From Salinibacterium sp. UTAS2018 (GTDB taxonomy: Bacteria > Actinomycetota > Actinomycetes > Actinomycetales > Microbacteriaceae): DNA of 64,000 nt. Where the stretch lies: positions 1,240,001 to 1,304,000 of the forward strand of contig NZ_CP035375.1 of NCBI RefSeq assembly GCF_004118935.1, in the 5' to 3' direction. The translations under genes and the position numbers were made by a program. The stretch's first letter is position 1, and the number at the start of each line of letters is the position of its first letter. The notes under the pieces are model-generated. The model saw only the letters and a list, made by a program, of their open reading frames with translations, did not search any database and was not told where the DNA came from. Positions 11,468-63,601 of this stretch are shown here, piece after piece.

Positions 11468-11488
11468 CTTCCCCGCCCTCGCAGCACA

Positions 11489-11535
11489 AGAAAGGCCGCC
11501 CATTCCGTCTCACGACGGGCGGGCGGCCTTCTCAT
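11489..11535 (+). terminator. Hairpin terminator after the carboxylase alpha subunit
   Basis: Perfect 10-bp stem AAGGCCGCCC (11492-11501) with GGGCGGCCTT (11521-11530), followed on the plus strand by TCTCATTT. It lies 24 bp after the stop codon. Confidence 0.75.
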
Positions 11536-11539
11536 TTGG

Positions 11540-11570
11540 TGCAGTTGTACAGTTCGTGCAGTTGTACAGG
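11540..11570. repeat. Two 14-bp direct repeats beside tRNA-Ala
   Basis: GTGCAGTTGTACAG occurs at 11540-11553 and again at 11557-11570, 3 bp apart, ending 3 bp from the 3' end of the tRNA-Ala gene. Each copy contains the palindrome TGTACA. Function unknown; it could be a protein site or a local duplication. Confidence 0.5.
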
Positions 11571-11573
11571 CTG

Positions 11574-11646
11574 TGGACCCTAGGAGATTTGAACTCCTGA
11601 CCTCCTCGATGCGAACGAGGCGCGCTACCAACTGCGCCAAGGGCCC
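11574..11646 (-). tRNA. tRNA-Ala(CGC)
   Basis: The reverse strand folds into a 73-nt cloverleaf: acceptor GGGCCCT with AGGGTCC (one G-U), D arm GCGC...GCGC, anticodon stem CCTCG/CGAGG around the loop TTCGCAT (anticodon CGC), variable loop, and T arm AGGAG-TTCAAAT-CTCCT. Discriminator A; CCA is not encoded. Confidence 0.93.
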
Positions 11647-11725
11647 GTACTGCTGAAGCAACAATATCACTCAGCACATGCCCGCGAAGACGGATGCTGG
11701 GCATCCGTGAATGAGAGTTGCCGCA

Positions 11726-12583
11726 CTACGGCAGAAGTCCAAGCTTGCGCGCCGTCGAGACCGCCGTGAATCTCGATGAGGCATCGAGCTTTTTCATCGC
11801 GCTGCCCAGGTATCCCTTGACCGTTTGTTCAGTGAGCGACAGCAGTGCAGCAGTGCGCGAGTTACTGTACCCGAGCGCGACGCACGACAGCACATCCGTC
11901 TCCCGGGGCGAAAGCTTCAGGCTACGTTCGCGCGACAACACTTCGGCGTCGCCAACGCTGAGCGCGTCTGTGAGCCCGCGGCCGATGTCGTGCAGCTTCT
12001 TTCTGACGTCGCGATCCTTCACCGTCGCCGCCACCTGTCGAAGCTGCGCAAACTGTTCTCGAAGATGCTCCTCTGTAACGGGAGACAACCCCCTGCTCTG
12101 ATGTGACCTCTGCGCCACCAGCCGGCGCGTCACTTCGTCACGAATAGCCAGCTCATTGCCCAGTGCAGCAGCGATCGCTACGGCTGGTCGAGCTGCCGCA
12201 GTGTCCGGCTCGACGAGAGAGTGCGATCCGGCGTAAATCAGCCCGCGGAGCCTTCCCCCCGCAATGATCGGAATCGCCAAGAGGGAGACAACGCCTTCGC
12301 CTAAGACAGCCCCATCGTAATCATGAGTGATGTCGGGCGAATGCTCGTAGTCACGCGTAAAACGTGGACTGCGCTGAGCCATGGCGAGTCCGCCAAGGCC
12401 GCGTTCTTTTCTCACTTTGAGGCCATCTAATTTGCCGGTTCGAGCACCGCTGAACGCATTCACGGTGAGTTCGATTCCGGAGGTGAGACCGCCGAACGAC
12501 AGGCTGAAGCCCGTGCTCGAGGCAATCTCTCGAGTGGCCTGCTGGATCAAATCAAAGTCACTTGGTTCAGATATCTGCGTCAT
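11726..12583 (-). CDS. GAF-LuxR transcriptional regulator, RamA-like
   Basis: A 285-residue regulator with a GAF-like domain (about residues 15-150; GLGGLAMAQRSPRFTRDY, VVSLLAIPIIAGGRLRGLIYAG) and a C-terminal LuxR HTH (LSPRETDVLSCVALGYSNSRTAALL, then TVKGYLGSAMKKLDA). The architecture matches RamA of Corynebacterium glutamicum, a regulator of acetate and propionate genes. It is divergent from a PrpE-like ligase followed by an acetate symporter, so control of that operon is inferred. No receiver domain is present; the GAF domain may bind a metabolite. Confidence 0.8.
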   Translation of the reverse strand: MTQISEPSDFDLIQQATREIASSTGFSLSFGGLTSGIELTVNAFSGARTGKLDGLKVRKERGLGGLAMAQRSPRFTRDYEHSPDITHDYDGAVLGEGVVSLLAIPIIAGGRLRGLIYAGSHSLVEPDTAAARPAVAIAAALGNELAIRDEVTRRLVAQRSHQSRGLSPVTEEHLREQFAQLRQVAATVKDRDVRKKLHDIGRGLTDALSVGDAEVLSRERSLKLSPRETDVLSCVALGYSNSRTAALLSLTEQTVKGYLGSAMKKLDASSRFTAVSTARKLGLLP

Positions 12584-12702
12584 TGCTGATTCCCAACTTT
12601 CGGGGGTATTACGTGCTGTACGCCCCTCCGTAATCTGAGGCTAGCACGGGATTCCCCAGCCCCCGCAGGGAATCCACAGCACACATTTCAAAGGAGAAAT
12701 TG
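12584..12702. promoter_or_regulatory. Shared divergent control region of the RamA-like regulator and prpE-like operon
   Basis: The 119-bp gap holds G/C runs that resemble RamA sites known from Corynebacterium: CGGGGGT at 12601 and CGCCCCT near 12621. It also holds an inverted repeat GGATTCCC (12649-12656) / GGGAATCC (12668-12675). The Shine-Dalgarno AAGGAG (12691-12696) precedes the ligase start. That the G runs bind this regulator is inference. Confidence 0.45.
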
Positions 12703-14709
12703 ATGCCAGATGCCCCTTCGCTAGAGCGAGTTTCGGCTCACAGAGTGGCCGCCCGCCTGCGACACCAATCCGATTCGTACGCCGAAATCTACGAGCACTC
12801 CACTCGTGCTCCCGATGACTTCTGGCTCCAACAAGCTGACTGCGTTGACTGGATTACACCACCAACTCTGTCTTCCCCCAGCCACGCCCAGGAGCCGGGA
12901 ACCGATCACGGCAGTTGGTTTGCCGACGGCACCATGAACATCAGCGTCAACGCGCTCGACCGCCACGTTGCTGCGGGCCGCGGCCATCATCCGGCGCTGA
13001 TCACCGACTCCGCAATGATCGGCGAGAAGAGTGTGCTCACCTACGCGGAGCTTCTTGAGCGCGTCAGAAAGTTCGCCGGTGCTCTCCACGAACTTGGTGT
13101 TGGCGCGGGCGATCGCGTGCTTATCTACCTGCCGATGATCTCCGAAGCCGTCGTTGCCATGCTGGCCTGCGCTCGGATCGGCGCCATTCACTCGGTCGTA
13201 TTCGGGGGCTTTGCCGCCAACGAGCTTGCTGTTCGCATCAACGATGCCACTCCCTCCGTCATCGTCACCGCGACGGGAGGCCTTGAGCCTTCCCGCCAGG
13301 TGGAATACCTGCCTATCGTGCATCAGGCGATCGGGCTCAGCACCGGCAGCGTGCGCTACGTCGTTGTTAAAGATCGACCCCAGATCGATGGGGACATCAC
13401 TGAATACGCCTCGGGCGCGGCCAGCGGCGGCTCTCCCGACGTCTCGTGGCTGGACTGGGATGAACTCGAGTCGAGCGCGTTACCCGCCGACGCCGTAGAA
13501 ATGCGCGCGCAGGACCCGCTCTACATTCTTTACACCTCCGGAACCACCGGAAGCCCGAAGGGTGTTGTGCGCGACACCGGCGGGTACGCTGTGGCGCTGC
13601 AGTGGGCGATGACCAATATCTACGCGGTGGGGCCCGACAGCACCATCTTTACTGCATCGGATGTCGGCTGGGTCGTCGGTCATTCCTTTATCGTTTACGG
13701 CCCTCTCCTGGCGGGCGCGGCGACGGTGCTCTACGAGGGAAAGCCGATTGGCACCCCCGATGCGGGAACGTTCTGGCGCATCATCCAGGATTACGCAGTG
13801 GATGTGCTCTACACGGCCCCCACAGCGCTCCGCGCAATCCGCCGCGAAGACCCCACGCTCGATGAGCTAGAGAAATACGACACCTCCAGCTTGCAAGCGA
13901 TCTACCTGGCCGGCGAGCGTCTCGATACGGAGACGTGGCACTGGGCCAACGACGGCATCCACGTTCCGATCGTCGACCACTGGTGGCAGACCGAAACCGG
14001 GTGGCCGATCTGCGCCAACCCGCGCGGCGTTCAGCAGCTGGAATCGAAGGCGGGCTCGACGGGCGTGCCGATGCCGGGATTCGTTCCCCGCATCCTCGAC
14101 CGCGAAGGCAATGACGTCACGAAACCGGGCACCGAGGGAAACATCGCGATCCAGTTACCGCTTCCTCCCGGCGCTCTCATCGGGCTGTGGGGAAGCACAG
14201 AACGGTTCGAAAACTCCTACCTCGCCGAATTCCCGGGCTACTACGCCACTGGTGACGCGGGTTACTTCGACGATGACGGCTATCTCTTCGTAATGGGGCG
14301 CACCGATGACGTCATTAACGTCGCCGGCCATCGCCTCTCGACGGGGTCGTTCGAGGAAGTGATCTCCCAACATCCGGATGTCGCTGAATGCGCCGTTCTC
14401 GGACTCCACGACGAGCTGAAGGGCCAGCGGGCCGCGGCCTTCATCACGATGAAGCACGGCAGGAATCGTGATGAGGGCGCCCTCGCTATTGAGCTTGTGG
14501 CGCTGGTGCGCGAGGTCATTGGGCCGGTCGCTGCCTTCCGGGACGTCATGGTTGTCGAGCGTCTCCCCAAGACCCGCTCGGGAAAGATCCTGCGCAAAAC
14601 CATTCGTCAGATCTTCGACGGCGAGGAAGTTCGCATACCGCCGACGATCGAGGATGTCACCGTGCTTGATGCGATCTACACCGCCGCTGGCCGAACCCGC
14701 ATTCAGTAG
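12703..14709 (+). CDS. prpE: PrpE-like propionate/acetate--CoA ligase
   Basis: A 668-residue ANL-family ligase forming acyl-CoA from a short-chain acid, ATP and CoA. N-terminal cap region (FWLQQADCVDWITPP, SWFADGTMNISVNALDRH), the P-loop YTSGTTGSPKGVVRDTGGYAVAL (about residue 277), WWQTETGWP, YYATGDAGYFDDDGYLFVMGRTDDVINVAGHRLSTG, and the catalytic Lys in RSGKILRKTIR (about 628). The VRDTGG after the P-loop favours PrpE over Acs; propionate or acetate preference cannot be settled from sequence. Start ATG at 12703 with AAGGAG 6 nt upstream; the TTG just before is rejected. Followed by the DUF485 protein and ActP symporter. Confidence 0.85.
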   Translation: MPDAPSLERVSAHRVAARLRHQSDSYAEIYEHSTRAPDDFWLQQADCVDWITPPTLSSPSHAQEPGTDHGSWFADGTMNISVNALDRHVAAGRGHHPALITDSAMIGEKSVLTYAELLERVRKFAGALHELGVGAGDRVLIYLPMISEAVVAMLACARIGAIHSVVFGGFAANELAVRINDATPSVIVTATGGLEPSRQVEYLPIVHQAIGLSTGSVRYVVVKDRPQIDGDITEYASGAASGGSPDVSWLDWDELESSALPADAVEMRAQDPLYILYTSGTTGSPKGVVRDTGGYAVALQWAMTNIYAVGPDSTIFTASDVGWVVGHSFIVYGPLLAGAATVLYEGKPIGTPDAGTFWRIIQDYAVDVLYTAPTALRAIRREDPTLDELEKYDTSSLQAIYLAGERLDTETWHWANDGIHVPIVDHWWQTETGWPICANPRGVQQLESKAGSTGVPMPGFVPRILDREGNDVTKPGTEGNIAIQLPLPPGALIGLWGSTERFENSYLAEFPGYYATGDAGYFDDDGYLFVMGRTDDVINVAGHRLSTGSFEEVISQHPDVAECAVLGLHDELKGQRAAAFITMKHGRNRDEGALAIELVALVREVIGPVAAFRDVMVVERLPKTRSGKILRKTIRQIFDGEEVRIPPTIEDVTVLDAIYTAAGRTRIQ

Positions 14710-32468: not shown

Positions 32469-32498
32469 GAAAGTGCCCCTGGAGGGATTCGAACCCCC
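32469..32498. repeat. attL: Left attachment site of the ICE (tRNA-Arg 3' end copy)
   Basis: The 30 bp here are identical to 63525-63554 at the far end. They reproduce the 3' acceptor and T-arm part of tRNA-Arg(CCT), ending at the T-stem (GGATTCGAACCCCC). Only this fragment of the tRNA is present, so it is the duplicated half created by integration, and the intact gene lies at the right end. Confidence 0.93.
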
Positions 32499-40655: not shown

Positions 40656-41968
40656 GCACCCTCGAAATGACCGCTGACGTTGCACCCAACGGCACCGAAG
40701 CTACCGTCAGCGTTGCCGGCCAGCCGACAGAAACAGTTCAGTATGCGCGCGAGGATCAGCTGCGCACCGGGATCATTCAAAGAGCGTCGGAGATCGCACG
40801 CGAGAACGGGACCGACGTTCGGCTGACTTCGAAACAGTCCAACGGAGTATTCCGTCTGTTGGTGTCTGGCGACGGTCGCGTTAGCCCCGACAACAGAGTG
40901 GAACTGCAGGAGCACACCGCACCCGTAGAACCACTACGTAGGACTCGACCGATGGTCGTCGAGCGCGAGATCCAAACACCTGCGGCCCCTGAAGCAGAAC
41001 CGACACAGGAGGCAGTCGAGGAGGCTCCCGAAGAGGGACGCCGCTCATTCCTCGCCGATGACAGCGCAGCTCTACCGCCAGCCACAGGATGGCGCGGGCT
41101 CGTCACGCGCACAACCGGAATCAAGATCGCACCTTCGCTTGCGGAGCAAGAACGTCTCATGAATGTTCGAGCCGTCAGCCAGCACTGGGCAGGCGGCCGC
41201 TCTATTTCCGTTGTCAACGGCAAAGGTGGCGTCGGAAAAACGCTGACCACAGCAATGCTGTCCGCCGTATTTGCACGTCACGGCGGCTCGGGAGTGATCG
41301 CCTGGGATAACAACGACACCCGCGGAACACTCGGCTGGAGGACTGAACGCTCCAGCCACAACGCCACCATCCAAGACCTTGGCGGTGTGACCGAACAGCT
41401 CATGCAGCCCACAGCGACCATCGGAGATTTGGCTCTCTACGTCCATCATCAGAGCGCTGATATGTATGACGTGCTTCGCTCAAACCCCAAGCTTCTGGCC
41501 TCCGATCAACGCCTCACTGCCGCCGAATTTGATGCGCTCAATGAAGTCATCAAGAAGTACTCGCGAATGGTCATCTTCGACACAGGCAACGATGAATCCT
41601 CCGAGCGGTGGCTCCGGATGATCGACCACAGCGACCAACTCGTGGTTCCCACCAGCCCCTCGGGGGAAGCCGCAGAGTCAGCAGCATTGTTGCTCGAAGA
41701 GCTGAGTCAACGAGATGAGCGTTCCGCAAAGCTAGTAAAGAATGCTGTCGTCGTCGTCACAGTCGCGGAGCGCTCCACGCCGGCCGCTGAAGTAGCCCGC
41801 ATCGTTTCCGGGTTTGAGAAGGTTGCACCACGTACTGTCGTGATTCCTTTTGATCCCAGTTTGAAGTCCGGCGCTCTACGCTTCGACAGCTTGAAGCCAG
41901 CAACCAAGAACGCATGGATCGCAGCCGGCGCCGCCGTCGCCGCCAGCTTGAACGAGCAGAACGCATGA
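40652..41968 (+). CDS. ParA/MinD-like ATPase of the conjugation operon
   Basis: 438 residues. An N-terminal region (1-170) with no recognised domain leads into a deviant Walker A SVVNGKGGVGKTLTTAML (about 188-202), AWDNNDTRGTLGWRTE in place of ParA's DxDxQ, and VIFDTGNDESSERWLRMID. It is inside the T4SS operon, distinct from the partition pair at 59.2-60.3 kb, so a role in positioning the apparatus is more likely than plasmid partition. ATGA overlaps at both ends. Confidence 0.78.
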   Translation: MSTLEMTADVAPNGTEATVSVAGQPTETVQYAREDQLRTGIIQRASEIARENGTDVRLTSKQSNGVFRLLVSGDGRVSPDNRVELQEHTAPVEPLRRTRPMVVEREIQTPAAPEAEPTQEAVEEAPEEGRRSFLADDSAALPPATGWRGLVTRTTGIKIAPSLAEQERLMNVRAVSQHWAGGRSISVVNGKGGVGKTLTTAMLSAVFARHGGSGVIAWDNNDTRGTLGWRTERSSHNATIQDLGGVTEQLMQPTATIGDLALYVHHQSADMYDVLRSNPKLLASDQRLTAAEFDALNEVIKKYSRMVIFDTGNDESSERWLRMIDHSDQLVVPTSPSGEAAESAALLLEELSQRDERSAKLVKNAVVVVTVAERSTPAAEVARIVSGFEKVAPRTVVIPFDPSLKSGALRFDSLKPATKNAWIAAGAAVAASLNEQNA

Positions 41969-43800
41969 ACACTGCGAAGAACTGGTGGGTAACCCCAGTT
42001 CTTGGACTCGTGGCCGTGATCCTCGTGATCAACTTCGCCTGCCAGGCGGTGACGACCCTCGTCACAAAGATCATCTGTGACAGCAGTGCAGCCCCGCAAT
42101 CCATGTTCGCAGGTCTCGGGTTCGTCTTTCTGGGTGACACCTCCAGCTATGTCGTCGACGCAAGCTGTTCCTTCCCCGCAACGGCAGCACGTATCGCCGG
42201 CATCGCCGTCATGATTATTTGCGTCCTTGCGGTAATCGCCGCGACCATCATGTGGTTCCGATACCGCCAGTCGGATGGCTATTTCATCCAGCAACTACGC
42301 GGGCGTGAAGGATTCGCCAAGGGCAGCGAGATCACCAAGCACCTTTCCGCAAAAGCCGTGCTGAAGCAGGCAAAGACACTCCGCCCCAACCTGCACAAGC
42401 CTGCCGCCACAGACGTGGGATGGAGAGTCGGACGTTCGTCCGGCGTTGACGTCTACGTCTCGATCGAAGACTCGGTAGCAGTCGAAGGTGCCCCCCGATC
42501 CGGCAAGGGCTACCGCATCCTCATCTCGGCGATCCTCGACTGGGCAGGCCCACTGGTCACGACGTCGACCACCAACGACAACTTGGCCGCAACGATGCGA
42601 CCGCGCGCTGAGCGAGGCCGCGTGACGGTCTTCGACCCGCAACAACTTTCAGGTGTCGGTTCAGCGCTACGCATTTCACCGATCACCGGATGCGACGATC
42701 CTCTGGTCGCTGACCAACGAGCCCAAGCGATCATTGCCGGAACAGCTCTCGGTTCCAGCCAGTCAAACCAAGAATGGGCAGGTGCAGCCTCCAGCGTTCT
42801 GGCACAACTCCTTCACGCAGCCGCAGTCTCCGGAGGCGGAGTCGAGCAGCTGTACCACTGGGGTTCAAACCCCGGCCTTGCCCGTGGGGCGGTCGATATT
42901 CTGCGCACTGACGGCGCACCAGGATGGGCCGAAAGCCTCAACGGTGTTCTCGGCGGCGACCCCAAGCTTCTGTCGTCGTCGTGGTTCGGAGTCGCAGCAG
43001 CCGTTCGACCGTTGGGCATTCCGAGCCTCAGAGAAGCTCTCTCGCCAAAGCGTGGCGAAAACTTCGACGCCGACGAATTCCTCTCTGGCGAAAACACTCT
43101 CTACCTGATCGGCTCCAGCGGCGGCTCGGGTGCGATGGGCGGCTTCCTCGGCGCCCTCCTGGACGACGTGGTTGAAACCGCACGCCGCAAAGCACTAGCA
43201 ACACCCGGCTCACGGCTCGACCTGCCACTAGGACTGATTCTCGACGAGATCGCGAATATGTTCGCGTGGCCAGCGCTGCCACGAGTCATGGCTGACGGTG
43301 GCGGCCGAGGAATCTGCACAATGGTCGTCCTTCAGGCACTCTCACAAGCCGAGACTGCCTGGTCAAAGGCAGAAGCAGACACCATCTGGTCGGCAGCAAC
43401 GGCAAAGATTCTGCTCGGCGGAGCTTCAGATATGGGGCACCTGCGCGATATTGAAGCCATGCTCGGAACGCGACAGCTAAAGCGATCTTCCTACAGCTAC
43501 AACCAGCAGGGAGCCTCGACCAGCAACCAGCTCGAGCGAGTTCCGCTAATGACCGTCGACGAGATCCGTCGTATGCCGCAATCGATGGGATTGCTGGCCT
43601 ACCGAAACCGTCGTGGAGCACTTCTCGATCTGCGCGGATGGACTGATCGTGCTGACAGCAAGAGCATCTCGACGGGCAAGCGCACAACCGAAGCAGAGCA
43701 GCAGGAACAGTTCCGCACGCAGTTCGCCAAGGCCGAACCGCTCGCGCTTTCTGAGCCCGAGGAAACCCTCGAGCTGGACTACGAGGAAACCCAGAACTGA
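41965..43800 (+). CDS. VirD4/TraD-type coupling protein
   Basis: 611 residues. Two N-terminal helices (about 8-30 and 75-97), then an ATPase with Walker A VEGAPRSGKGYRILIS (about 172-187), Walker B LILDEIANMFAWPALPRVMADGGGRGI, and AKILLGGASDMGHLRDIEAMLG, the coupling-protein signature. It brings the relaxase-DNA complex to the secretion channel. ATG at 41965 overlaps the preceding stop by 4 nt; its stop overlaps the next ATG. Confidence 0.88.
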   Translation: MNTAKNWWVTPVLGLVAVILVINFACQAVTTLVTKIICDSSAAPQSMFAGLGFVFLGDTSSYVVDASCSFPATAARIAGIAVMIICVLAVIAATIMWFRYRQSDGYFIQQLRGREGFAKGSEITKHLSAKAVLKQAKTLRPNLHKPAATDVGWRVGRSSGVDVYVSIEDSVAVEGAPRSGKGYRILISAILDWAGPLVTTSTTNDNLAATMRPRAERGRVTVFDPQQLSGVGSALRISPITGCDDPLVADQRAQAIIAGTALGSSQSNQEWAGAASSVLAQLLHAAAVSGGGVEQLYHWGSNPGLARGAVDILRTDGAPGWAESLNGVLGGDPKLLSSSWFGVAAAVRPLGIPSLREALSPKRGENFDADEFLSGENTLYLIGSSGGSGAMGGFLGALLDDVVETARRKALATPGSRLDLPLGLILDEIANMFAWPALPRVMADGGGRGICTMVVLQALSQAETAWSKAEADTIWSAATAKILLGGASDMGHLRDIEAMLGTRQLKRSSYSYNQQGASTSNQLERVPLMTVDEIRRMPQSMGLLAYRNRRGALLDLRGWTDRADSKSISTGKRTTEAEQQEQFRTQFAKAEPLALSEPEETLELDYEETQN

Positions 43801-45234: not shown

Positions 45235-48200
45235 TTAGATCGAGAGACCCGGTTCGTCTGCATTCGCTGTGGCCTGTGGCAGGTTCAGTGATGTTGATGT
45301 CTTGCGCGCCGTCTGCTTCACATCCGCGTTCTCTAGATCGTTGCTCAGCTTGCGGTAGCGCGCAGCGAACTGGCTTCGCTGAGTTGTGTCGCGCTCGATT
45401 CTCTCGATAACCTTCAGCTTGGCCGCTTCCAATATGTCTATGGACTCCGGCTTTCCATCACTGATCTGCGCGCTGTGGTTGCGCGCTGCGCGCGTGGCTA
45501 GGCGCGCGTCCAGCTCGCGAACTGTCTGGCGATCGCGCGTGAGTCGGCTCGACACCTTCTCCAGCTGCTCATGCACCTCTGCACGCGCAACGAGGACCGC
45601 AGGACGTCGCGGATCGTCCGCAGGAATACCCACAACTAGCTCGGGCTCGTTACCTTCATGGGTGCGCGCAGCGCGGGCCAGCTCTGATGCTGCAGCGGCG
45701 CGAGAGTCATCAATAGTGATCTCCACACGGCCACGGCGCATCGACTCCGCAATCGTGTCAACGGCCTGACTACGGTTGCCCGCGACCACAACACTCTCGT
45801 TGTGGCGCCGTCCACGAGTCATCCCAACATATAAACCAGCAGCGTCGACACCCGGGCCAACGATGGCAACGTCAGTTGTTTCCCCCTGGATGCCGTGCAC
45901 CGTGGATGCGTAGGCAAGGTGCAGGTGTTTTGTGCCGTACTCGCGAGTAACGATCCGGGTGTCGCCGGCTTGCGCAGCGTTCTCCAGCACGATCTCTTCC
46001 GAGCGGATCTTCTTCACGACCCACAAAGCACGGTTCTCAACGCCAGTATTCGAATCATTGCGGCGGGTCTGTACGACATCGCCTTCCAAGAGGCGTTGTC
46101 CTTCTTGGCCTTCGGCCAGACGATTGATTGTCAGTTGGCCACGAGCAACGCGTTCGCTCTGGATGCTCTCATTTACGAGTTGTGCGTCAGAATTTGTGCC
46201 GGTGACTAGGGCGATGCTCTGGCCTGCTCCAGCGGCTTGGAAGTATCCCGAGACCATGTGGGCGCGTGCGTCGATGTCGTTAGTGACGCACGCAACGTGT
46301 CCGCCGTCGTAAAGTTCGCGGGCAACATCCGTGGCAGCTTCTTCGCTGCCGGGGTCGCGCAGTCGCATTGACAGGCGCCCATATTCGGCATCCTTGAAAC
46401 GGTGAATTGCGGTCAGCTCGACCACAGCGGTGGAGCGCTGTTTGGTCAACGCCATTGCGCCGGAGTGTCCGACTGGGGCGGCCTGCAGGTGGTCGCCGAC
46501 CATCGCAATCCCTGCTCCCGTTTGCTCGGCCAAGATCGCCAGTGCGCGTGCCGCGTTCAGGTCGATCATTCCTGCTTCGTCGACGACGATGCGATCGCCG
46601 GGGTGAAGTACGTGCTTGCGAGGGCCTTCATAAATGGCACCGGTGTCGGCGCTCACTGAGCCGACCTCCAGCTGCGACCAACGTTGGACACCGGCAGCGT
46701 CCGGTCCAAAACGCCACCCGTTGTCGTACAGCAGACCGTGCAGCGACGATGCCGTCGCGCCCGTCTCACGACCAGCGACGCTAGCCGCTTTCTTAGTCGG
46801 GGCAACGACGACGAGCTGGCGACCCTGCTCCGTCAGCGATGCCGCTGTGACCTTCAGCATGGTCGTCTTACCAGTACCGGCAGGTCCAGTGACTGTCACC
46901 AAACGGTCGGTGCCGGCGATCGCTGCAGCGGCGTTCGTTTGCCCTTCATCCAGTCGGCGGCCGTCGTCCAGAACACGACTAGCGATGGTGTCGATCGCGC
47001 CAACGGCAACGGGCTCGCCTGCCTCAATGAGCAGGTCGAGCTGGTCTGCAAGCTGCGTTTTAAGCACCGCAGTATCGGCAGCCATGAAGTGCTTGACGTG
47101 ACCCGGAAGAGCATCCACATCTTCAGAAAGTTCGACAGTCTCAGCCGAAACTGCTCGAGCAACGACGTCCTCGAGAAGCTCGGAAACAAGTGCCCGGTCA
47201 AGAACAATTCCGCTAGCGGCGACGGCACGACCTGCACCGGCACGGATGTCGTAGTGACTAAATCGACCACCGGTACCAGCCGAACGGCGATCAGCATCGG
47301 CGATCGCTTGGGCGGCCAAAAGGTCACGGTCAAGCTCTCCGATATGAACTGCAGCTACCCCAGTAGCGACTCGCGCCCCCAACACTTTGGGGTCGAGTTC
47401 CAACAGTTCGTCACGCACAATCTCAGTCCAGCGAGCCTCGTCAACCTTGCCGGGCTTGTTCGGGCGCCCTGCCGCCCAGGCCCAACGGTCGATCGCAGTC
47501 AGCACGTTGTGGTCAGGTTCCTGACCCGGATTGGCGGCTTTCCAGTCAGCAAGTTTCAGCGCCCGGTTCGCCTCAATTTGGTTCGAGCGACGCGACAGCG
47601 GACGCACCAAATGAGCCAGCTGCTCGATCTCTCCAGAGGCATCCAAAGTGAACCCTTTCGCCGCCAACGCAGCGATCCATTCTGGGTCAGTACGGGCGGC
47701 CAAATCGCCCTCAGAATTGACCACAGTTTGGAAGCGTAAAGCCACCCGTGAATCGACGTTTGACCATCGTCCGTCGACGCCACGAACCTTCATGTTCAGC
47801 CACAGATGACGGTGCTTATGAGGGTCCAAAGAACGCGACCGTTCGTGCTTGAGTTCCACCACTTCAATGCGGGAAAGCTCTTGCCGGATTGCCCCGCCAG
47901 CGCCGCGCCGAGCGTTGAGTTCGGACTGCCAGGTAAGCAGCACACGGTCGCGCAGGCGGTCTTGGAGATACTCGAACTCGGCCGCCAACTCGGCATCGAG
48001 AAGAGCCGCTAGCGAAAAGGACTTCGGAGAATTGACCGTTGCATCCAGCAAGAGGTCGGCTTCTGGAGACGGAAGTTCGCGCCCGCGGTGCTCGCCGGTT
48101 TCGGGATCAGAACCACCGATCCACGCCTTCAATTGGTCACGGCTGAGCGAGTCAGAGAACGTTACACCGTCCTCGACCACAAAGCGTTCCATCACACCAT

Positions 48201-48339
48201 TGGTGTAGCCGGCTGCCGCTTCGGCCCCTGCCGATGCAGTTATGTGCGAGTCGCAGGTGCCACCAAACGCGTAGTCAAGAGCTTGCCGGACACCCTGAGA
48301 AGCGACCCCTCGCTTCCATCTGGCTATCCCTCCGCGCAT
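45235..48339 (-). CDS. traA: MobF relaxase-helicase (TraA/TrwC-like)
   Basis: 1,034 residues. N-terminal relaxase: Tyr residues near 23 and 45 are nucleophile candidates, and the metal site is HKHRHLWLNMKV (about 173). C-terminal SF1 helicase: VTGPAGTGKTTMLKV (about 485), VVVAPTKKAA, HPGDRIVVDEAGMID, VGDHLQAAPVG, ASTVHGIQGETTDVAIV, and YVGMTRGRRHN. It nicks oriT, stays on the 5' end and is delivered by the coupling protein while the helicase unwinds. Unlike classical TrwC there is no YY pair near the N terminus. The opposite strand to the T4SS operon. Confidence 0.88.
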   Translation of the reverse strand: MRGGIARWKRGVASQGVRQALDYAFGGTCDSHITASAGAEAAAGYTNGVMERFVVEDGVTFSDSLSRDQLKAWIGGSDPETGEHRGRELPSPEADLLLDATVNSPKSFSLAALLDAELAAEFEYLQDRLRDRVLLTWQSELNARRGAGGAIRQELSRIEVVELKHERSRSLDPHKHRHLWLNMKVRGVDGRWSNVDSRVALRFQTVVNSEGDLAARTDPEWIAALAAKGFTLDASGEIEQLAHLVRPLSRRSNQIEANRALKLADWKAANPGQEPDHNVLTAIDRWAWAAGRPNKPGKVDEARWTEIVRDELLELDPKVLGARVATGVAAVHIGELDRDLLAAQAIADADRRSAGTGGRFSHYDIRAGAGRAVAASGIVLDRALVSELLEDVVARAVSAETVELSEDVDALPGHVKHFMAADTAVLKTQLADQLDLLIEAGEPVAVGAIDTIASRVLDDGRRLDEGQTNAAAAIAGTDRLVTVTGPAGTGKTTMLKVTAASLTEQGRQLVVVAPTKKAASVAGRETGATASSLHGLLYDNGWRFGPDAAGVQRWSQLEVGSVSADTGAIYEGPRKHVLHPGDRIVVDEAGMIDLNAARALAILAEQTGAGIAMVGDHLQAAPVGHSGAMALTKQRSTAVVELTAIHRFKDAEYGRLSMRLRDPGSEEAATDVARELYDGGHVACVTNDIDARAHMVSGYFQAAGAGQSIALVTGTNSDAQLVNESIQSERVARGQLTINRLAEGQEGQRLLEGDVVQTRRNDSNTGVENRALWVVKKIRSEEIVLENAAQAGDTRIVTREYGTKHLHLAYASTVHGIQGETTDVAIVGPGVDAAGLYVGMTRGRRHNESVVVAGNRSQAVDTIAESMRRGRVEITIDDSRAAAASELARAARTHEGNEPELVVGIPADDPRRPAVLVARAEVHEQLEKVSSRLTRDRQTVRELDARLATRAARNHSAQISDGKPESIDILEAAKLKVIERIERDTTQRSQFAARYRKLSNDLENADVKQTARKTSTSLNLPQATANADEPGLSI

Positions 48340-55370: not shown

Positions 55371-55609
55371 TGTTTCTCTCTCTATTGGGTTATCAGATTC
55401 GCGGTGCCGATTTGGCACGTAGAGCAATAGAGAGTGGAGGAGGCGGAGTGCCCGTAGAGAGCGGTTGCTAAGCGGGGGAACGCAGTGGAGGAGTCTGCAA
55501 ATAGCGAACGGAGGGTCGCAGCCGAGAGAGCGAACTATGGTCGTAGAGACAAATTGGCGTCGCGAATCTACCCACCAACAGACGCAGCAATGGGGGTACC
55601 CTCATGTGC

Positions 55610-56293
55610 ATGTGTGGACGGTTTGCTCTAGACGACAAGGTCAATGCTCTGATCGAGGAATACGTCGCCGCCGGCGGCGACTACCGTCAATGGGCAGGGT
55701 CCTGGAACATCAAACCCATCACCCAAATTCCGATCCTCTTCGAGGATGAAGAACATGGGCACCGCTCCGAGCTTGCTCGGTGGTCCTTGGTCGCTCCGTG
55801 GGCGAAGGATCTCTCCCAGAAGTTCCCCACGTTCAATGCCCGCTCGGAGAACATCACCGAGAAAGCCACGTGGAAGAACCCGGTAAATACGAAGCGGGCC
55901 ATCGTGCCGGCGACCGGATACTTCGAGTGGGTCACCGAAGGCAAAACGAAAACACCCAACTTCATCTACGACCCCGCCGGCGAGATGCTCGGTTTCGCGG
56001 GACTGTACTCCTGGTGGAAAGACCCCACCAAAGAAGAGGACGATGCGTGGTTGCTCTCAACCACGATCCTCACAATGGCGACAGTTCCAGAGCTGGCGCA
56101 TCTGCATGATCGAAACCCGGTGACACTCCCCCGCGATTTCTGGGACGAATGGACCTCGCCCACGACAGTGGGCGATCAAACTTTGGTCGATGCCGCTGTC
56201 GCGGCAGCAATCCCTGTCGCAAGCGCACTCACTTCCCACCAGGTCGCACCGCTGACGGGAAATGACCCCAGCCTCATCCAGCGAGTGACCTGA
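55610..56293 (+). CDS. SRAP (SOS response-associated peptidase, YedK/HMCES)
   Basis: 227 residues. Catalytic Cys2 must be exposed after removal of Met, giving CGRFALDD; then NARSENITEKATWKN, RAIVPATGYFEW (conserved PxxGYYEW-type motif) and LAHLHDRNPVTLP with the active-site His. It forms protein-DNA crosslinks at abasic sites in ssDNA. On an ICE it may shield single-stranded transfer intermediates; that is inference. ATG at 55610 is preferred to 55604 since only this start puts Cys second. Confidence 0.9.
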   Translation: MCGRFALDDKVNALIEEYVAAGGDYRQWAGSWNIKPITQIPILFEDEEHGHRSELARWSLVAPWAKDLSQKFPTFNARSENITEKATWKNPVNTKRAIVPATGYFEWVTEGKTKTPNFIYDPAGEMLGFAGLYSWWKDPTKEEDDAWLLSTTILTMATVPELAHLHDRNPVTLPRDFWDEWTSPTTVGDQTLVDAAVAAAIPVASALTSHQVAPLTGNDPSLIQRVT

Positions 56294-56451
56294 CAAACAG
56301 CATCTGCTGCCTAGGTATCTGGTCATCAACAGCCAACCGCCGACGGCTGTTATCCCCAACAACACTCATTCGATCTACGCACCTCGAGCACTACTTAGGC
56401 TGCATAGATGGGAAGGTCATCGGACTAAACGGCAAGGCTATTGATCCATTG

Positions 56452-56868
56452 ATGCTGTCTATCCGAACAGCGCTACTGGCCGAAGGTGCCGCTTCGCAGC
56501 TCCTGAAAGGGATACCCGTTTCTGCCGATGATTGGCGGAGGAAAGCGCGCGTCGTGGCGCGAGAGCTTGGACGTCCCGTCCGGACATTCGTTTCCGTCGA
56601 AGCAGTCCACGCCGTGCTGCGTGACTGGCCGGCAGACGATCGCGAATCGCAGATTCATGACCGCGCGCTCGAAGAGGCGGTCGAACTCAGCAAACTGGCA
56701 ACTGAAATGACGACCCCCATCGAGAAATGCCCCTCGTGCGGTGAAGAGCGCCATTGGCGATCAAGTGACCGCTTAGACAAAGCCAGCACCATCGTTTGCG
56801 GTCACTGCGGAATCGTGGAGCTTCAACCTCTCCCCCAGCGCGCCAGAGATCTCCCGCCGGGCCGATAG
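56452..56868 (+). CDS. Hypothetical protein with C-terminal zinc ribbon
   Basis: 138 residues. Helical N-terminal part (DDWRRKARVVARELGRPVRTFVSVEAVHAVLRDWP) and CPSCGEERHWRSS...CGHCGIVEL, a CxxC...CxxC zinc ribbon. Not assigned to a named family. ATG at 56452, with a weak ribosome site. Confidence 0.5.
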   Translation: MLSIRTALLAEGAASQLLKGIPVSADDWRRKARVVARELGRPVRTFVSVEAVHAVLRDWPADDRESQIHDRALEEAVELSKLATEMTTPIEKCPSCGEERHWRSSDRLDKASTIVCGHCGIVELQPLPQRARDLPPGR

Positions 56869-57250: not shown

Positions 57251-57337
57251 CTACTGGCAGCTATCGCACTGCAGGTCTTCCATCGGGTCGATAGGGACCA
57301 TGTACTCGTCGACGTCAGCTTCTGGCTTCTTGTTCAC
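57251..57337 (-). CDS. CxxC-tailed mini-protein B (28 aa)
   Basis: A 28-residue frame too short for usual gene calling. GTG start at 57337 is preceded by AAGGAG with 6 nt spacing. The C-terminal core E-Y-x-V-P-x-D-P-M-x-D-L-x-C-x-x-C ends at Cys27 with a final Gln. The plus-strand frame at 57752-57835 shares the core at 11 of 17 positions and 6 of these 11 residues use different codons, so the protein sequence, not just the DNA, has been kept. The two are divergent across 414 bp. The tail suits a metal site or thiol switch, but function is unknown. Confidence 0.65.
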   Translation of the reverse strand: MNKKPEADVDEYMVPIDPMEDLQCDSCQ

Positions 57338-57751
57338 AATGCGCTCCTTGGGTTGATGGGCTGTTGGTTAGAGACGCCCAACAGCTCTGGTCCGCTCGCA
57401 GTGCAACCCACCGTGGCAAAAGTTTGCGCAGCCAAGTTTTCCGCGAAAGGGGTTGCGGTGCGGGCGGCGGAGCTAAGTCTCTTCGCTACCAACGGCCACT
57501 ACCCAAGATCAGACACAAGAAGGTCTGACGACGCTCGTTGATAACGAGCAATTGGTGAGCCGGAGGCTCCTGTGTTCTAGCAACTTCGTTGTCTTTTTTC
57601 GCTGGAGGAGTGTAAGCACGATTCCTCTCTTCGCAAGTGCTTTCGCGGCATATCCTCGCGGAGCTCCGGTATTCCACGGTCACTGGCGAATTCACCCCAT
57701 CGCGCCATTTCGCACTTTGTGTCGAAAAAGACATGGGAAGGGATAAAGAAA
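57338..57751. promoter_or_regulatory. Divergent control region between the two mini-proteins
   Basis: 414 bp without a convincing gene. It contains a palindrome GCTCGTT-GAT-AACGAGC (57534-57550) that could be an operator. Minus-strand frames here lack family motifs or ribosome sites. It is the shared upstream region for the two divergent CxxC mini-proteins. Confidence 0.4.
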
Positions 57752-57835
57752 ATGCAAAGAGACACAGAGAACGTAGGCGAGTACCAGGTGCCCGTCGATC
57801 CGATGGACGACTTGAACTGTGAGGCGTGTGAATAA
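57752..57835 (+). CDS. CxxC-tailed mini-protein A (27 aa)
   Basis: A 27-residue frame from ATG at 57752, preceded by GAAGGGA. It carries the same E-Y-x-V-P-x-D-P-M-x-D-L-x-C-x-x-C core as the divergent copy at 57251-57337, with Cys23 and Cys26. The stop overlaps the next ATG (TAATG), so it is coupled to an HTH protein and then a DprA-like gene, forming a small operon. The coupling plus the conserved partner are the basis for the call. Confidence 0.68.
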   Translation: MQRDTENVGEYQVPVDPMDDLNCEACE

Positions 57836-58074
57836 TGGCTACCGAGACACGGGAAAAGCGGGACGAGCACTATTTCCTCACGCCCGTCGAAGCCGCCGAG
57901 AACCTCGAACTATCAGTTGAAGACCTCCGGACGATGCGGGCTGCGGGAACTGGCCCTAGGTTCATTTCCCTCACCACTCGAACTGTGCTCTACTTCGCCT
58001 CATCCTGCCTCCCCAGTTACCCTCTTTTCGAAGACGATGGGAATGATCAGTCTGAGGAGGGTCACTCACTGTGA
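57835..58074 (+). CDS. HTH_17 excisionase-like protein
   Basis: 79 residues. HYFLTPVEAAENLELSVEDLRTMRAAGTGPRFISLTTRTVLYFAS is a MerR/excisionase winged-helix; the paralogue at 61034-61240 shares the xGRGPxFxxxTxRTVLY section. The last 25 residues diverge and end acidic, so the tail may be altered by a frameshift. ATG shares 1 nt with the mini-protein A stop; overlaps the DprA-like start by 4 nt. May regulate this operon or excision. Confidence 0.6.
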   Translation: MATETREKRDEHYFLTPVEAAENLELSVEDLRTMRAAGTGPRFISLTTRTVLYFASSCLPSYPLFEDDGNDQSEEGHSL

Positions 58075-58961
58075 ACGCCAACTCATTATCACCTTCCATC
58101 GCGACTACGACGGGTGTGCTGGATGACGACACCAAAGCTCGGATTGCTCTTTCCTGTGCAGGGGTCAGCGGGGATCCAACTGTCGCTGTCGGAATCGACA
58201 TGCTCGGGGGTCCCGTTGCTTTCGTCGCGGCGGTCCACGATGGACGGGATCGGCTCGCTACCTTGTCACCTCTCGTGCGTCAGCGGATTCGTGCGCTTGC
58301 GTCAGCAGTTCGTGTGGCGGATGCGCTGCGCTCCATGACCTGCGGTGGTGGGCGCGTGTTGACTCCAAGAGATATGCATTGGCCGAGCCAGGTAAGTGCG
58401 CTCGGCCGAGGCGCCCCCCTTGTACTTTTCGCTCAAGGTGATGTAACGACTCTGAGACTTCCCTCGGTCGCGATCACAGGAACAACCGCTCCCAATACCC
58501 ACGAAACCCACATGACGATCGAGTTAGCGACTGGTCTTGCTGATCGGCGATGGGTTATTGCTTCCGGAATGGCCCAAGGCATCGATCAGTTGTCCTTATC
58601 TGCCGCAACTGCAATGCGCGGAAGAACGATCATTGTCGGGGCAGAGATGCTGCGCGACACTGAGGTTGTTCATGATTCGGTTCGGGTCAGCGAGTTGCCG
58701 CTTACGAAGGCCGTCACGGCGCGAGAGCAGCACCGATCCAGACTTCTGCTTGCCGCAATCGCGACGAAAACTATCGTTGTAGAGACCGGCGAATCCTCCA
58801 ACGCGTTTCTCGCTGCGGAGGCCGCTATCGCGATTCACCGCCCCGTTGGAATCCTGGCGCAAGCAAGCATGAAGAAACCCGGAGCAGAGAGGATCGACCC
58901 ACACTCGCGTCGCAGCATGGTGCGAATCGCGTCTGTCACGGACGCCGATAGGCTCCGATGA
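58071..58961 (+). CDS. DprA/Smf-like Rossmann protein
   Basis: 296 residues. N-terminal helical part (about 1-85), then a DprA-type Rossmann fold: LPSVAITGTTAPNTHETHMTIELATGLADRRWVIASGMAQGIDQLSLSAATAMRGRTIIVGAE, and IATKTIVVETGESSNAFLAAEAAIAIHRPVGILAQ, matching VAIVGxR...SGxAxGID...T.VVxA...S. Chromosomal DprA loads RecA on incoming ssDNA; here it may aid establishment after transfer. GTG at 58071 overlaps the preceding stop. Confidence 0.78.
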   Translation: MNANSLSPSIATTTGVLDDDTKARIALSCAGVSGDPTVAVGIDMLGGPVAFVAAVHDGRDRLATLSPLVRQRIRALASAVRVADALRSMTCGGGRVLTPRDMHWPSQVSALGRGAPLVLFAQGDVTTLRLPSVAITGTTAPNTHETHMTIELATGLADRRWVIASGMAQGIDQLSLSAATAMRGRTIIVGAEMLRDTEVVHDSVRVSELPLTKAVTAREQHRSRLLLAAIATKTIVVETGESSNAFLAAEAAIAIHRPVGILAQASMKKPGAERIDPHSRRSMVRIASVTDADRLR

Positions 58962-59216: not shown

Positions 59217-59645
59217 TCATGACGTCAACGACTTGCGGATCGAGTCCTCGTCGTCGCCTGCCGCTGCGTCAATCTGTGTAAGAAGCAAGTCGATCGCGAT
59301 CCTTATGAGGGAGTTTTCAGTGATCCGAGCCCCCTGGCTTACTTTCGCCCTGTTGAGGCGTCTAGCTTCGACTGTAAGTTGGTTCTGCTGGTCTTCCCGG
59401 ATCCTCGTTTCTTTCCTCACGAAACGTAGATAGGTTGGCACAGCGTCATCAGACGCTGGCCGCATGGGCACATTGTTTACCTTTGGCACCCTCTTCTTTC
59501 GGCCCGAAGATCGAACCGGCTCAACCACGATCTGATCGGCCCCAGGAGCGCCGATTTCGATCCGAGCTTTATTTGGCCGGGGCAATGTGGAGGGTCCTGC
59601 ATCACCGACATTGCCAAGCAAATGGCCGAGATTTGCGCGAACCAT
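59217..59645 (-). CDS. Ribbon-helix-helix centromere-binding protein (ParB-like)
   Basis: 142 residues. Disordered basic N terminus, then TYLRFVRKETRIREDQQNQLTVEARRLNRAKVSQGARITENSLIRIAIDLLL, the beta strand and two helices of an RHH domain (about 80-135). It starts with an ATG overlapping the parA stop (TAATG), the standard ParA-RHH ParB pairing. Stabilises the extrachromosomal form of the ICE by binding centromere sites upstream of parA. Confidence 0.7.
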   Translation of the reverse strand: MVRANLGHLLGNVGDAGPSTLPRPNKARIEIGAPGADQIVVEPVRSSGRKKRVPKVNNVPMRPASDDAVPTYLRFVRKETRIREDQQNQLTVEARRLNRAKVSQGARITENSLIRIAIDLLLTQIDAAAGDDEDSIRKSLTS

Positions 59646-60295
59646 TAGCCACTCGCAGTGGCGGCGTTGGCCCAAATAGACATCAGCTCGAGTGCTACAG
59701 CACGGTAGTCGTCGATAGACTTCGCGGTCTGCTTGAATTCGGGGTACTGGGTGACTACTTTGCCTTCGATCGGGGCGTCCGCGTGGATCTTGTAGCGGCG
59801 AATCGCTCGTCCGAACCGAGGCAGCCCGAGTTCGTCCACAAGCCGCTCGGCGTCTTCAAGCTGCCCTGGCACCCTCATGTCGATCTTGCTCAGCAAGACG
59901 CGAAACGGGGTCGAGGTCGGCTCAATGAAGGTCCTCACGGTTCGTATCATTGGCGGAATACACAAGGCTTCCGGCTCTGTTGGGACGATCGCAAAATCTG
60001 CGACAGTCAGAACTGAAGACAGGATGTCACTGTCAGTTAGATTGCCCGGGGTATCGACGAAAACCATGTCATATGGCAGGTCCCTCATCCGGGCCAACGT
60101 TGCCGGGTCGGTGTCGTCGGCGAAGTCGAACGGCAGCCCGTCTCCTGCGGTCGAGGCCCACCACGTCGTCGATTGTTGGGGGTCAACGTCCACGACTAGA
60201 ACGCGCGAGTTTTCCGCGGCGATTGCCGCGAGATTCATTGTCGTGGTGGTCTTACCCGCTCCTCCCTTCTGGTTGGTTACAGCCACAATCCTCAT
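59645..60295 (-). CDS. parA: ParA-family partition ATPase
   Basis: 216 residues. Deviant Walker A VAVTNQKGGAGKTTTTMNLA, DVDPQQSTTWW, Walker B YDMVFVDTPG, and LSKIDMRVPG. Small class Ib-like ParA without an N-terminal HTH. Partition of the circular ICE intermediate is the likely role. Followed by an RHH ParB-like gene; centromere-like repeats lie immediately upstream. Confidence 0.88.
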   Translation of the reverse strand: MRIVAVTNQKGGAGKTTTTMNLAAIAAENSRVLVVDVDPQQSTTWWASTAGDGLPFDFADDTDPATLARMRDLPYDMVFVDTPGNLTDSDILSSVLTVADFAIVPTEPEALCIPPMIRTVRTFIEPTSTPFRVLLSKIDMRVPGQLEDAERLVDELGLPRFGRAIRRYKIHADAPIEGKVVTQYPEFKQTAKSIDDYRAVALELMSIWANAATASG

Positions 60296-61333: not shown

Positions 61334-61918
61334 ATGGAAATGGCTGATTTTCGTTCTGAGTCGAGCTTGGGCGCTCGTATTCGAACCGCCCGACGCGCCC
61401 GCGGATTACGGACAGCACGGGACCTCGCCGACGCGATCGTGGGCGGCACACTGTCAGAGGCGATCATCGAGAACATCGAGACAGGGCGAAAAGTCTCCCT
61501 TGACGTCAGCCAGCTCTTGAATATCGCCATGGCTCTTCGGGTTCCCCTGAGCTATCTTCTCGCGCCTCTTGGCGAACCGGAGCGCCCCCTCGATCTACCG
61601 AACTTGAGTCAAGCGTTTGAGGGAATGACTGCGATTGAATTCGACTCGTGGCTAACGGCGTCGAAGGACGGCAGCTATCGACCCGAATCAATAGAAGAAC
61701 GTAACGCCACCTCAGAATTGCAAGCACTTCGCGAGTGGTCCGCGCTGACGCGCGAAGTTGCGCGGTTGCAGACGATGTTCGAGTTAGAGACGGCGACCAT
61801 GTCATCAGCGGACGCAGGTGACGCGCTGCTTCGCACCACGGAAGCCCGTCTAGTCGATGCGCGACGTGAGTCTGCCCGGCTCGCCAGCTACTTGGAATCA
61901 GCCGGCTGGAAGCTCTAG
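61334..61918 (+). CDS. XRE-family transcriptional regulator
   Basis: 194 residues. N-terminal Cro/C1 HTH (about 8-70): SLGARIRTARRARGLRTARDLADAIVGGTLSEAIIENIETGRKVSLDVSQLLNIAMALRVPLSYLLAP; C-terminal coiled coil (about 115-190). Probably represses its own promoter and the divergent HTH-Rep-ParA operon, and so may control ICE excision. ATG at 61334; Met at 61340 also possible. Confidence 0.85.
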   Translation: MEMADFRSESSLGARIRTARRARGLRTARDLADAIVGGTLSEAIIENIETGRKVSLDVSQLLNIAMALRVPLSYLLAPLGEPERPLDLPNLSQAFEGMTAIEFDSWLTASKDGSYRPESIEERNATSELQALREWSALTREVARLQTMFELETATMSSADAGDALLRTTEARLVDARRESARLASYLESAGWKL

Positions 61919-62036
61919 CCGCGGCAAATCGCATCGATTTGTTGCGTCGATAGCGTCCTTACGAATTTCAATATCCTGGCCGGCCCAAGAGCTTAACCGA
62001 TTCGATCTGTTAACCCAACTGCCGTTTGGAGTGACC

Positions 62037-63143
62037 GTGGGTTCGATAACCGCATACGAGACAGCGGCGGGAAAGCGGTACCGCGTACGATATCGCAAGC
62101 CCAACCGCGCGCAGACTGACAAACGCGGGTTCAAGACTAAGCGCGATGCCGAGCTGTTTCTTGCAGCTACAGAGGTGCGCAAGGCCACTGGCGAATTTAT
62201 CGACGCTACAGCGAGCCGCATCGCGATAAGTGAACTCGGAGTCGCCTGGCTACAGGCTCAAGCACATCTCAAACCCAGCTCGTTCGCAGTGGTCGAGGTA
62301 GCGTGGCGCGTCCACGTCGCGCCGCAGTGGGGCTCACGAATGCTTGGCGAGATCCGCCATAGTGAGGTGCAAGCATGGGTCAGCGAACTTGCGTCAAGGA
62401 AGAGCGCTACCGTGGTGATTCGTGCGTACGGGGTACTCGCGGGAATTATCGACGTTGCGGTTAAGGATCGCAGGCTACCTTCGAATCCAGCTCGTGGAGC
62501 CAACCTGCCTAGAAAAACGGGCAAAGAGCGTCACTATCTCACGCACCAACAGGTGCAACTTCTCGCGACCGAGTCTCGACACAACGGGACTCTAGTCCTG
62601 TTCCTGGCGTATACGGGCTTGCGATGGGGTGAAGCCGTCGGACTCAGGGTTCGAAGCGTCGACATGACTCGACGCCGCGTGCTCGTCCAGGCAAACGCAG
62701 TGAACGTGAGAGGCACGATCATTGCGGGTACACCTAAGAACCACGAAGCCCGAAGCGTCCCATTTCCGGAGTTCCTTGCCAGACCGCTCGCGCGACTATG
62801 TCTAGAAAAGACGAGAGAGCAGCTTGTGTTCGGGGACGGTGACGCATATTTATCCACGCCAACTCCCAATGACGGCTGGTTCTACGGTGCTCGAAAGCGA
62901 GCGTGCCTATTAGATGCAAATTTCCCGCCCAACCTCACTCTTCACGATCTAAGGCACACCGCAGCTTCACTGGCGATCTCTGCAAGCGCCAATGTCAAGT
63001 CGGTGCAGAGAATGCTCGGACATGCGTCCGCCGCGATGACTCTCGACACCTACGCCGACCTTTTCGACGATGACCTAGACGCTGTCGCCACCGCCTTAGA
63101 TCGCGCGAGAGCCGAAGGACTGTCGGTTCTTCCGACGCACTAG
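62037..63143 (+). CDS. int: Tyrosine-type site-specific integrase
   Basis: 368 residues. N-terminal arm-binding domain (GSITAYETAAGKRYRVRYRKPN), core-binding (SELGVAWLQAQAH to about residue 160), catalytic domain with Arg in AYTGLRWGEAVGL (about 195), HDLRHTAASLA (about 303), QRMLGHASAAMTLDTYADLF with catalytic Tyr (about 339). Inserts the ICE at the tRNA-Arg(CCT) 3' end, 386 bp from the intact tRNA. GTG at 62037 is preferred: GGAG lies 5 nt upstream; a 428-codon reading from 61857 overlaps the XRE gene. Confidence 0.92.
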   Translation: MGSITAYETAAGKRYRVRYRKPNRAQTDKRGFKTKRDAELFLAATEVRKATGEFIDATASRIAISELGVAWLQAQAHLKPSSFAVVEVAWRVHVAPQWGSRMLGEIRHSEVQAWVSELASRKSATVVIRAYGVLAGIIDVAVKDRRLPSNPARGANLPRKTGKERHYLTHQQVQLLATESRHNGTLVLFLAYTGLRWGEAVGLRVRSVDMTRRRVLVQANAVNVRGTIIAGTPKNHEARSVPFPEFLARPLARLCLEKTREQLVFGDGDAYLSTPTPNDGWFYGARKRACLLDANFPPNLTLHDLRHTAASLAISASANVKSVQRMLGHASAAMTLDTYADLFDDDLDAVATALDRARAEGLSVLPTH

Positions 63144-63524: not shown

Positions 63525-63554
63525 GAAAGTGCCCCTGGAGGGATTCGAACCCCC
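63525..63554. repeat. attR: Right attachment site of the ICE
   Basis: 30 bp identical to 32469-32498, overlapping the 3' end of the intact tRNA-Arg(CCT) gene at 63530-63601. The element between the repeats is 31,086 bp counted from the first base of the left copy to the last of the right. Confidence 0.93.
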
Positions 63555-63601
63555 AACCTGCTCCTTAGGACGGAGTTGCTCTTCCGTTGAGCTACAGAGG
63601 C
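63530..63601 (-). tRNA. tRNA-Arg(CCT), intact integration target
   Basis: Minus-strand cloverleaf of 72 nt: acceptor GCCTCTG with CAGGGGC (with a T-G pair), D arm GCTC...GAGC, anticodon loop GTCCTAA (anticodon CCT), T arm GGGGG-TTCGAAT-CCCTC with wobble, discriminator A. The 27-43 pair is a mismatch. Its 3' 25 nt form the ICE att core, so the gene is regenerated after integration. Confidence 0.88.

Follow-up and report, generated by a model that had tools for sequence, protein, structure and literature searches.

In class I ribonucleotide reductases (RNRs), the cysteines of the C-terminal tail reduce the active-site disulfide and are in turn re-reduced by thioredoxin or glutaredoxin (PMC5704485, PMC9669993), and almost all of these enzymes are described as having such a double-cysteine motif on the C-terminus of the enzyme itself (PMC9669993). 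The redox cysteines of the split class II RNR of Pseudomonas, NrdJa/NrdJb, are located on a second polypeptide (PMC4520616, PMC5704485); NrdJb does the same work from a separate chain, is needed in vivo, and in 2015 NrdJab was called the only split RNR of a non-viral organism (PMC4520616). It differs from the locus described here in being a class II (B12) enzyme whose NrdJb, of 229 residues, has a cysteine-rich zinc-binding domain and is encoded in one operon with nrdJa (PMC4520616, PMC5704485). The system considered below is not a split class II enzyme: its alpha subunit does not pass the NrdJ_Z cut-off and its redox piece has 22-40 aa. Another likeness is offered by the NrdA of Demequina (loci L358-L362), with the same end, PVDPM.xLQCESCQ, and the cysteine pair in the same place after the NrdA linker; there, however, the tail is covalently part of alpha, whereas in Microbacteriaceae with the NrdA considered here it is a separate product. 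In phage Aeh1, nrdA is reportedly split by a mobile endonuclease gene, so that this class I NrdA is divided as well, but reportedly inside the catalytic part and without a free tail. The folded redoxins NrdH, glutaredoxin and thioredoxin likewise use a cysteine pair to supply RNR with electrons, but they reduce the tail and are not the tail; a glutaredoxin fused to NrdB has been reported (PMC6187632). Searches of the open-licence PMC literature turned up no account of a class I RNR tail in detached form.

The window analysed here is a stretch of 64,000 nucleotides from Salinibacterium sp. UTAS2018 (NZ_CP035375.1, positions 1,240,001 to 1,304,000). A preliminary description, made from the letters alone, had pointed to two small frames with ribosome sites, one per strand, and both are present (Table 1). 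Its comparison of the two 17-residue cores is exact, with 11 identical residues, six of which (V, P, D, L, C and C) use differing codons, and so is the stop/start coupling, with an overlap between the TAA that ends the plus-strand copy and the ATG that opens the HTH-like frame; the DprA/SLOG-type gene overlaps the HTH-like gene in its turn. The description knew of no family for these peptides, and indeed they match no Pfam family over its cut-off and nothing in NCBIfam or PHROGs. Nevertheless, a homologue exists, namely the redox tail at the C-terminus of class Ia RNR. Against tail profile A1, of which both are themselves rows, copy 1 gives E=3.2e-14 and copy 2 E=1.1e-15, and the detached tail is homologous to the fused tails VACPVDPMEALQCESCQ of Demequina and ACPVDPQERLQCESCQ of family f25. 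The peptides are thus, as far as sequence can tell, almost certainly an RNR tail detached by descent, and the terminal CxxC, for which a thiol role had been suggested, would by this homology be a thiol pair.

Table 1. Features of the window, with positions counted from its first letter
Feature	Position	Strand	Remarks
Likely attachment site (far end)	32469..32498		30-bp direct repeat
TraG/TraD-type coupling protein of the element	41914..43800	+	PF12696 E=2.3e-29
TrwC-type relaxase/helicase of the element	45235..48339	-	PF08751 E=5.9e-27
Putative detached RNR tail, copy 1	57251..57337	-	28 aa, GTG start, C-terminal CDSCQ, AAGGAG upstream
Shared upstream region	57338..57751		414 bp, between both tail copies
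Putative detached RNR tail, copy 2	57752..57835	+	27 aa, ATG start, C-terminal CEACE, GAAGGGA upstream
Weakly HTH/excisionase-like protein	57835..58074	+	79 aa; HTH_17 E=0.089, phrog_66 E=0.034, both weak
DprA/SLOG-type protein	58071..58961	+	296 aa; PF02481 E=5.4e-24; TIGR00732 below its cut-off
ParA-type ATPase of the element	59645-60295
Phage-type integrase of the element	61857..63143	+	PF00589 E=7.5e-18; start codon uncertain
Likely attachment site (near end)	63525..63554		30-bp direct repeat, located at the tRNA-Arg(cct) 3' end
tRNA-Arg(cct)	63529-63601	-

The first proposal, a regulatory peptide, toxin or ssDNA-entry factor, suits small mobile frames that adjoin HTH-like and DprA-like genes. 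With the RNR evidence presented below, the lack of database matches and recurrent chromosomal neighbours that are nrdA/nrdB and hadA/hadB/murB, it is practically untenable. Other candidates were rejected as well: a zinc finger, for which the only Pfam match (zf-C2H2) has E=0.12; a redoxin of the NrdH, Grx or Trx kind, since 27-28 aa are too short for a thioredoxin fold and Pfam gave no match over cut-off and NCBIfam none; and chance ORFs, ruled out by four copies in the same genome, by matches in 26 of 27 genomes of the genus and by the pN/pS values reported below. The divergent arrangement is a fact of the window, but the pairing is not conserved as a functional unit. Among the four loci with an HTH-like neighbour that were read (the window, L007, L008 and L009), two copies stand close together only in the window and L009, and no second copy was found within the 1.5-kb flanks of the L007 or L008 tail. 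The HTH and DprA neighbours are confined to some elements; in two other genomes of the genus that contain the HTH-dprA locus the peptide is 96% identical, the HTH-like protein 66% and DprA 72-73%. Searched against plasmids, the DprA-like protein gave distant matches only (<60% identity), with no account of the peptide. Two further frames lie nearby in the window: one at 55604-56293 begins MCMCGRF and presumably belongs with the SOS-associated (SRAP/HMCES-type) peptidases, and one of 139 aa at 56449-56868 contains two CxxC pairs and matches zinc ribbons weakly.

A six-frame search of the 3.0-Mb genome found four tail copies, the window pair and two others at 2,513,298 and 2,679,142. The latter is placed between the alpha and beta genes of a class I RNR. 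Its alpha subunit, NrdA, has 812 aa and ends in ..SAPARRGFGGFAKKAE, with no cysteine there, and the next ORF, in another reading frame, encodes MNRENTTDDYFVPVDPMDDLQCDSCQ; the beta subunit follows. Alpha passes the cut-offs of the NrdE_NrdA and NF005101 models and stays below that of NrdJ_Z. Its best PDB match is 5im3, which we take to be P. aeruginosa NrdA, and it retains, on reading by eye, LANCFV, SNLCTEI, SVCNLAS and KTTYYLH, presumably the catalytic motifs of class I alpha. The copy at 2,513,298, MDNENDTVGGYAIPVDPMDLLQCDSCQ, has a strong ribosome site and stands upstream of three genes that we take, from their sequences, to be hadA, hadB and murB.

The same arrangement extends over the genus and the family. 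In the genus, the peptide matches at E<=0.01 in all genomes (own genome included) except G007, where the best match has E=0.29. The single PF02867 match of G007 (locus G007:C2:8183-9739) is a class Ib NrdE (TIGR04170, 1249 bits) with a fused CVSCML tail, as if this genome had swapped RNRs. In the family, profile A1 matches 136 of 299 genomes and 42 of 85 genera, and NrdA of this type was found in 49 of 110 sampled genomes and 41 of 85 genera. Comparison of the tables by eye shows that the genera with NrdA are the genera with the peptide, 41 each, plus g79 with the peptide only. This extra genus rests on one marginal match (G166, E=6e-4, its sequence not read), and the RNR of that genome carries its tail in fused form. 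It is worth noting that the script regexes demanded two cysteines, whereas profile A1 did not strictly do so and yet gave the same genera as NrdA. All 49 NrdA genomes contain the peptide. The reverse is also seen: among 14 genomes with another RNR examined by PF02867 (G007 and 13 of other genera, including G166), all 15 large-subunit loci read have a fused CVSCxL tail, and 13 of the genomes give no peptide match, the remaining one being the marginal G166. One genome that is 85% complete (G126) has the peptide and only a partial match to the RNR large subunit.

The peptide ORF follows nrdA directly in 47 of 49 genomes (30/30 plus 17/19; seven of the 30 escaped the regex but are evident on reading the translation). 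In 48 of 49, no cysteine occurs among the final 40-60 residues of NrdA. The one left outside these 48 is G035 (L079), in which the NrdA frame continues past its usual end, over the peptide, either by an assembly error or as a real extension. Eighty named loci, among them Salinibacterium (the closest), Leifsonia, Microcella, Aurantimicrobium, Alpinimonas and Frigoribacterium, comprise 69 split and seven fused ones, two that run off the contig and two without an adjacent peptide; in the last group, L352 lacks one beside nrdA and the contig of L356 ends right after nrdA. The detached tails have 22-40 aa and two cysteines, and the terminal CxxC is present in every nrdA-linked peptide and hadA-type copy read, among matches to regexes that themselves demanded two cysteines.

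In many genomes the peptide starts at most a few bases away from the stop of nrdA, and this closeness might mean that the separate gene is only apparent and that programmed frameshift, readthrough or peptide ligation unites peptide and NrdA. The frame of the peptide relative to that of nrdA is, however, 0, 1 or 2 depending on the genus, which argues against a frameshift product, and the distances from stop to start differ as well. Moreover, the hadA-linked copies have ribosome sites of their own, and those on phages and plasmids occur by themselves. In two genomes, nrdA is not followed by any copy: in G041 the sole peptide at E<=1 adjoins hadB and murB, 34 kb from nrdA on the same contig, and in G079 it is upstream of hadA, on a different contig from nrdA. 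A joined tail is therefore extremely doubtful. The tail is not covalently part of alpha, and the two are separate ORFs. Since the only tail found in G041 and G079 is so far from nrdA, it should work in trans, if these NrdAs work.

Relatives outside the split group indicate where the peptide may have come from. The tail is fused in all seven Demequinaceae-like NrdAs, five ending in ..VACPVDPMEALQCESCQ and two in ..MERLQCESCQ. In the class sample, which lists 76 NrdA places, 46 of them outside the reading, 15 of 17 NrdAs of families f25 and f32 have a fused tail ending in ..CP[VI]DPQE..CESCQ or similar (the other two, L104 and L110, are incomplete sequences). Ten of 12 more distant loci (L111-L122) have fused CEACQ ends, and the other two, L118 and L120, were misread by the script. 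A tree was built from 46 chosen NrdA pieces, namely 28 of the split type (three without an adjacent copy), 17 fused and one from a phage. The 28 split-type NrdAs fall on one side of a branch with support 91/84, which is moderate, and 95/87 when the phage NrdA is included. A single fission is the simplest reading, in which the tail would have broken off as a gene of its own at the base of the NrdA-using Microbacteriaceae. In the NrdA linker, repeated [RK][RK]GFG motifs are frequent (L006 at about 8080-8122, L064-L093, L358-L365), and they are kept ahead of a fused tail as well as, in split NrdAs, close to the new C-terminus; they are a possible docking motif.

The second chromosomal copy has an operator pair in common with nrdA. 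Upstream stretches were searched for pairs of operators resembling the NrdR-box consensus ACACWATATATWGTGT. Before the hadA-type copies, a pair with <=11 mismatches in total occurs in 36 of 36 distinct stretches against 3 of 720 shuffles, and one with <=10 mismatches in 34 of 36 against none of 720, these stretches being related and so not independent; all but one of the 36 pairs have a spacing of 33 bp. Upstream of nrdA, a pair with <=10 mismatches is found in 60 of 77 stretches, mostly 32-33 bp apart; of the other 17, nine were misplaced by the script, their match starting elsewhere than at 2501, and the remaining eight have scores of 11-12. No convincing pair of this type precedes the window copies, the best one in their shared upstream region having 15 mismatches. 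From the operator pair common to the hadA-type copies and nrdA, the second chromosomal tail is most likely a member of the RNR regulon, to which the window copies would not belong. Selection on the peptide, claimed in the preliminary description from codon differences alone, is evident on a broader basis and is purifying: pN/pS over the 17-codon core is 0.06 for 26 hadA-type and 0.23 for 84 nrdA-linked sequences, and the third codon positions are the variable ones among homologues. For 105 viral cores the value is 0.18, biased since the search pattern fixes residues.

The linkage to hadA, which lies within the fetched flank at 25 of 28 hadA-type loci, and the HTH-dprA linkage at three loci, would also be expected if the peptides now carried thiols for some other enzyme in a general way, as partners of the DprA-like protein or of HadAB, for instance. 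Such a change of role is very improbable, given that the hadA-linked copy has the operator of nrdA and is the only tail found in two NrdA genomes, and that 13 of the 14 fused-tail RNR genomes examined give no peptide match.

Following the flexible tail of other class I enzymes, which restores the active site after each turnover, the free peptide, itself expected to be disordered, would dock on NrdA and hand two electrons to the active site, and a thioredoxin-type donor would then re-reduce it, so that RNR turnover would depend on the concentration of the peptide. By analogy with the described enzymes, action in trans as an RNR reductant is very probable. The reading as a whole, a detached class Ia RNR tail that re-reduces RNR, is likewise very probable, with a chemistry that we infer, and its mobile copies would raise the dNTP supply. 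This reading would mean that a class I RNR with its redox tail as a free peptide occurs across 41 sampled genera, and it makes an old question testable, that is, whether the swinging tail of RNR can serve as a diffusible shuttle and what benefit tethering brings. Similar detached functional tails may hide elsewhere.

The mobile-element setting proposed for the window pair is borne out, and homologous small frames were found in related elements, as the preliminary description had anticipated. Region 32469-63554 is likely an integrative conjugative element of ~31 kb at tRNA-Arg, judging from the 30-bp repeats, the integrase, the TrwC relaxase and the TraG-type coupling protein; HTH-like proteins are also seen within it. 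Three isolated phages, CN1A and CMP1 of Clavibacter and phiPsal1 of Pontimonas, contain the tail ORF, which is not annotated as a gene there and lies next to their lysis genes or in their vicinity. Their E-values are weak (0.09, 0.004 and 1, respectively), so that the complete ORFs, as read, make the case for them; a match in a Gordonia phage at E=5 was left out of the count. Among plasmids, 19 records match at E<=10 (15 Clavibacter, three Leifsonia and one Gryllotalpicola), four of which were read. On the Leifsonia plasmid NZ_CP065038 (L126, 3983-4084), the 33-aa tail is annotated 'ribonucleotide-diphosphate reductase subunit beta', which is wrong but gives a clue to where the tail came from.

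In IMG/VR, at least 189 distinct viral stretches, in 167 distinct contexts, contain the tail. A stop codon comes right after Q in all 189 matches listed, a result that only the first 120 test, as the other 69 were found with the stop (TAG) written in the pattern; the pattern with A, C or G as the next base gave no match. Among the first 120 stretches listed, often partial contigs, nrdA and nrdB are absent at E<=1e-5 from 117; one contains the peptide, a tail-less nrdA and nrdB in a row, and two contain nrdB.

Regarding the role of these copies, the two in the window element, outside NrdR control, could keep RNR turning over during transfer or replication and thus provide more dNTPs, and phages and plasmids might do the same. 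Our judgement tips slightly towards such RNR boosters, a role that we infer. It counts against it that the plus-strand copy ends in CEACE, not in the usual CxSCQ; from this end and the missing operator pair, a drift of the element copies towards some other function is conceivable. On the same two grounds, the element and phage copies might be decoys or brakes, which compete for thioredoxin or for the NrdA site and so lower host dNTPs or block a rival, the chromosomal copies alone being RNR tails. This is rather improbable: the minus-strand copy retains the CDSCQ end, C[DE]SCQ is kept in 105 distinct viral cores of standard length while other positions vary (the search pattern fixed most of this motif, though S not fully), and the viral stretch that encodes a tail-less NrdA encodes the peptide too. 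To return to the booster role, its strongest form, in which a diffusible redox peptide of ~25 residues sets RNR turnover dose-dependently and, being so small and detached, has turned into a currency of mobile DNA, with a gene of roughly 80 bp on phages, plasmids and conjugative elements that lifts dNTPs past NrdR repression, is an evenly balanced proposition. Were the dose-dependent reading true, this would be an auxiliary metabolic gene that is usually too small for annotation to detect. The data suggest that a metabolic booster as short as about 25 codons, which gene callers mostly skip, can be carried on phages and plasmids.

The surroundings of the viral copies deserve a comment. Among the same 120 stretches (L166-L285), a terminase-type protein lies upstream in 39, a portal protein downstream in 36 and a holin directly upstream in 18, the neighbour families having been named from one representative each; a terminase/portal neighbourhood in about a third of them is odd for a metabolic gene. 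Finally, viral contig L202 contains, at about 9961-13299, an nrdA of the tail-less type in two pieces, with a gap of about 0.9 kb around residue 440 that is possibly an intron or an inserted gene.
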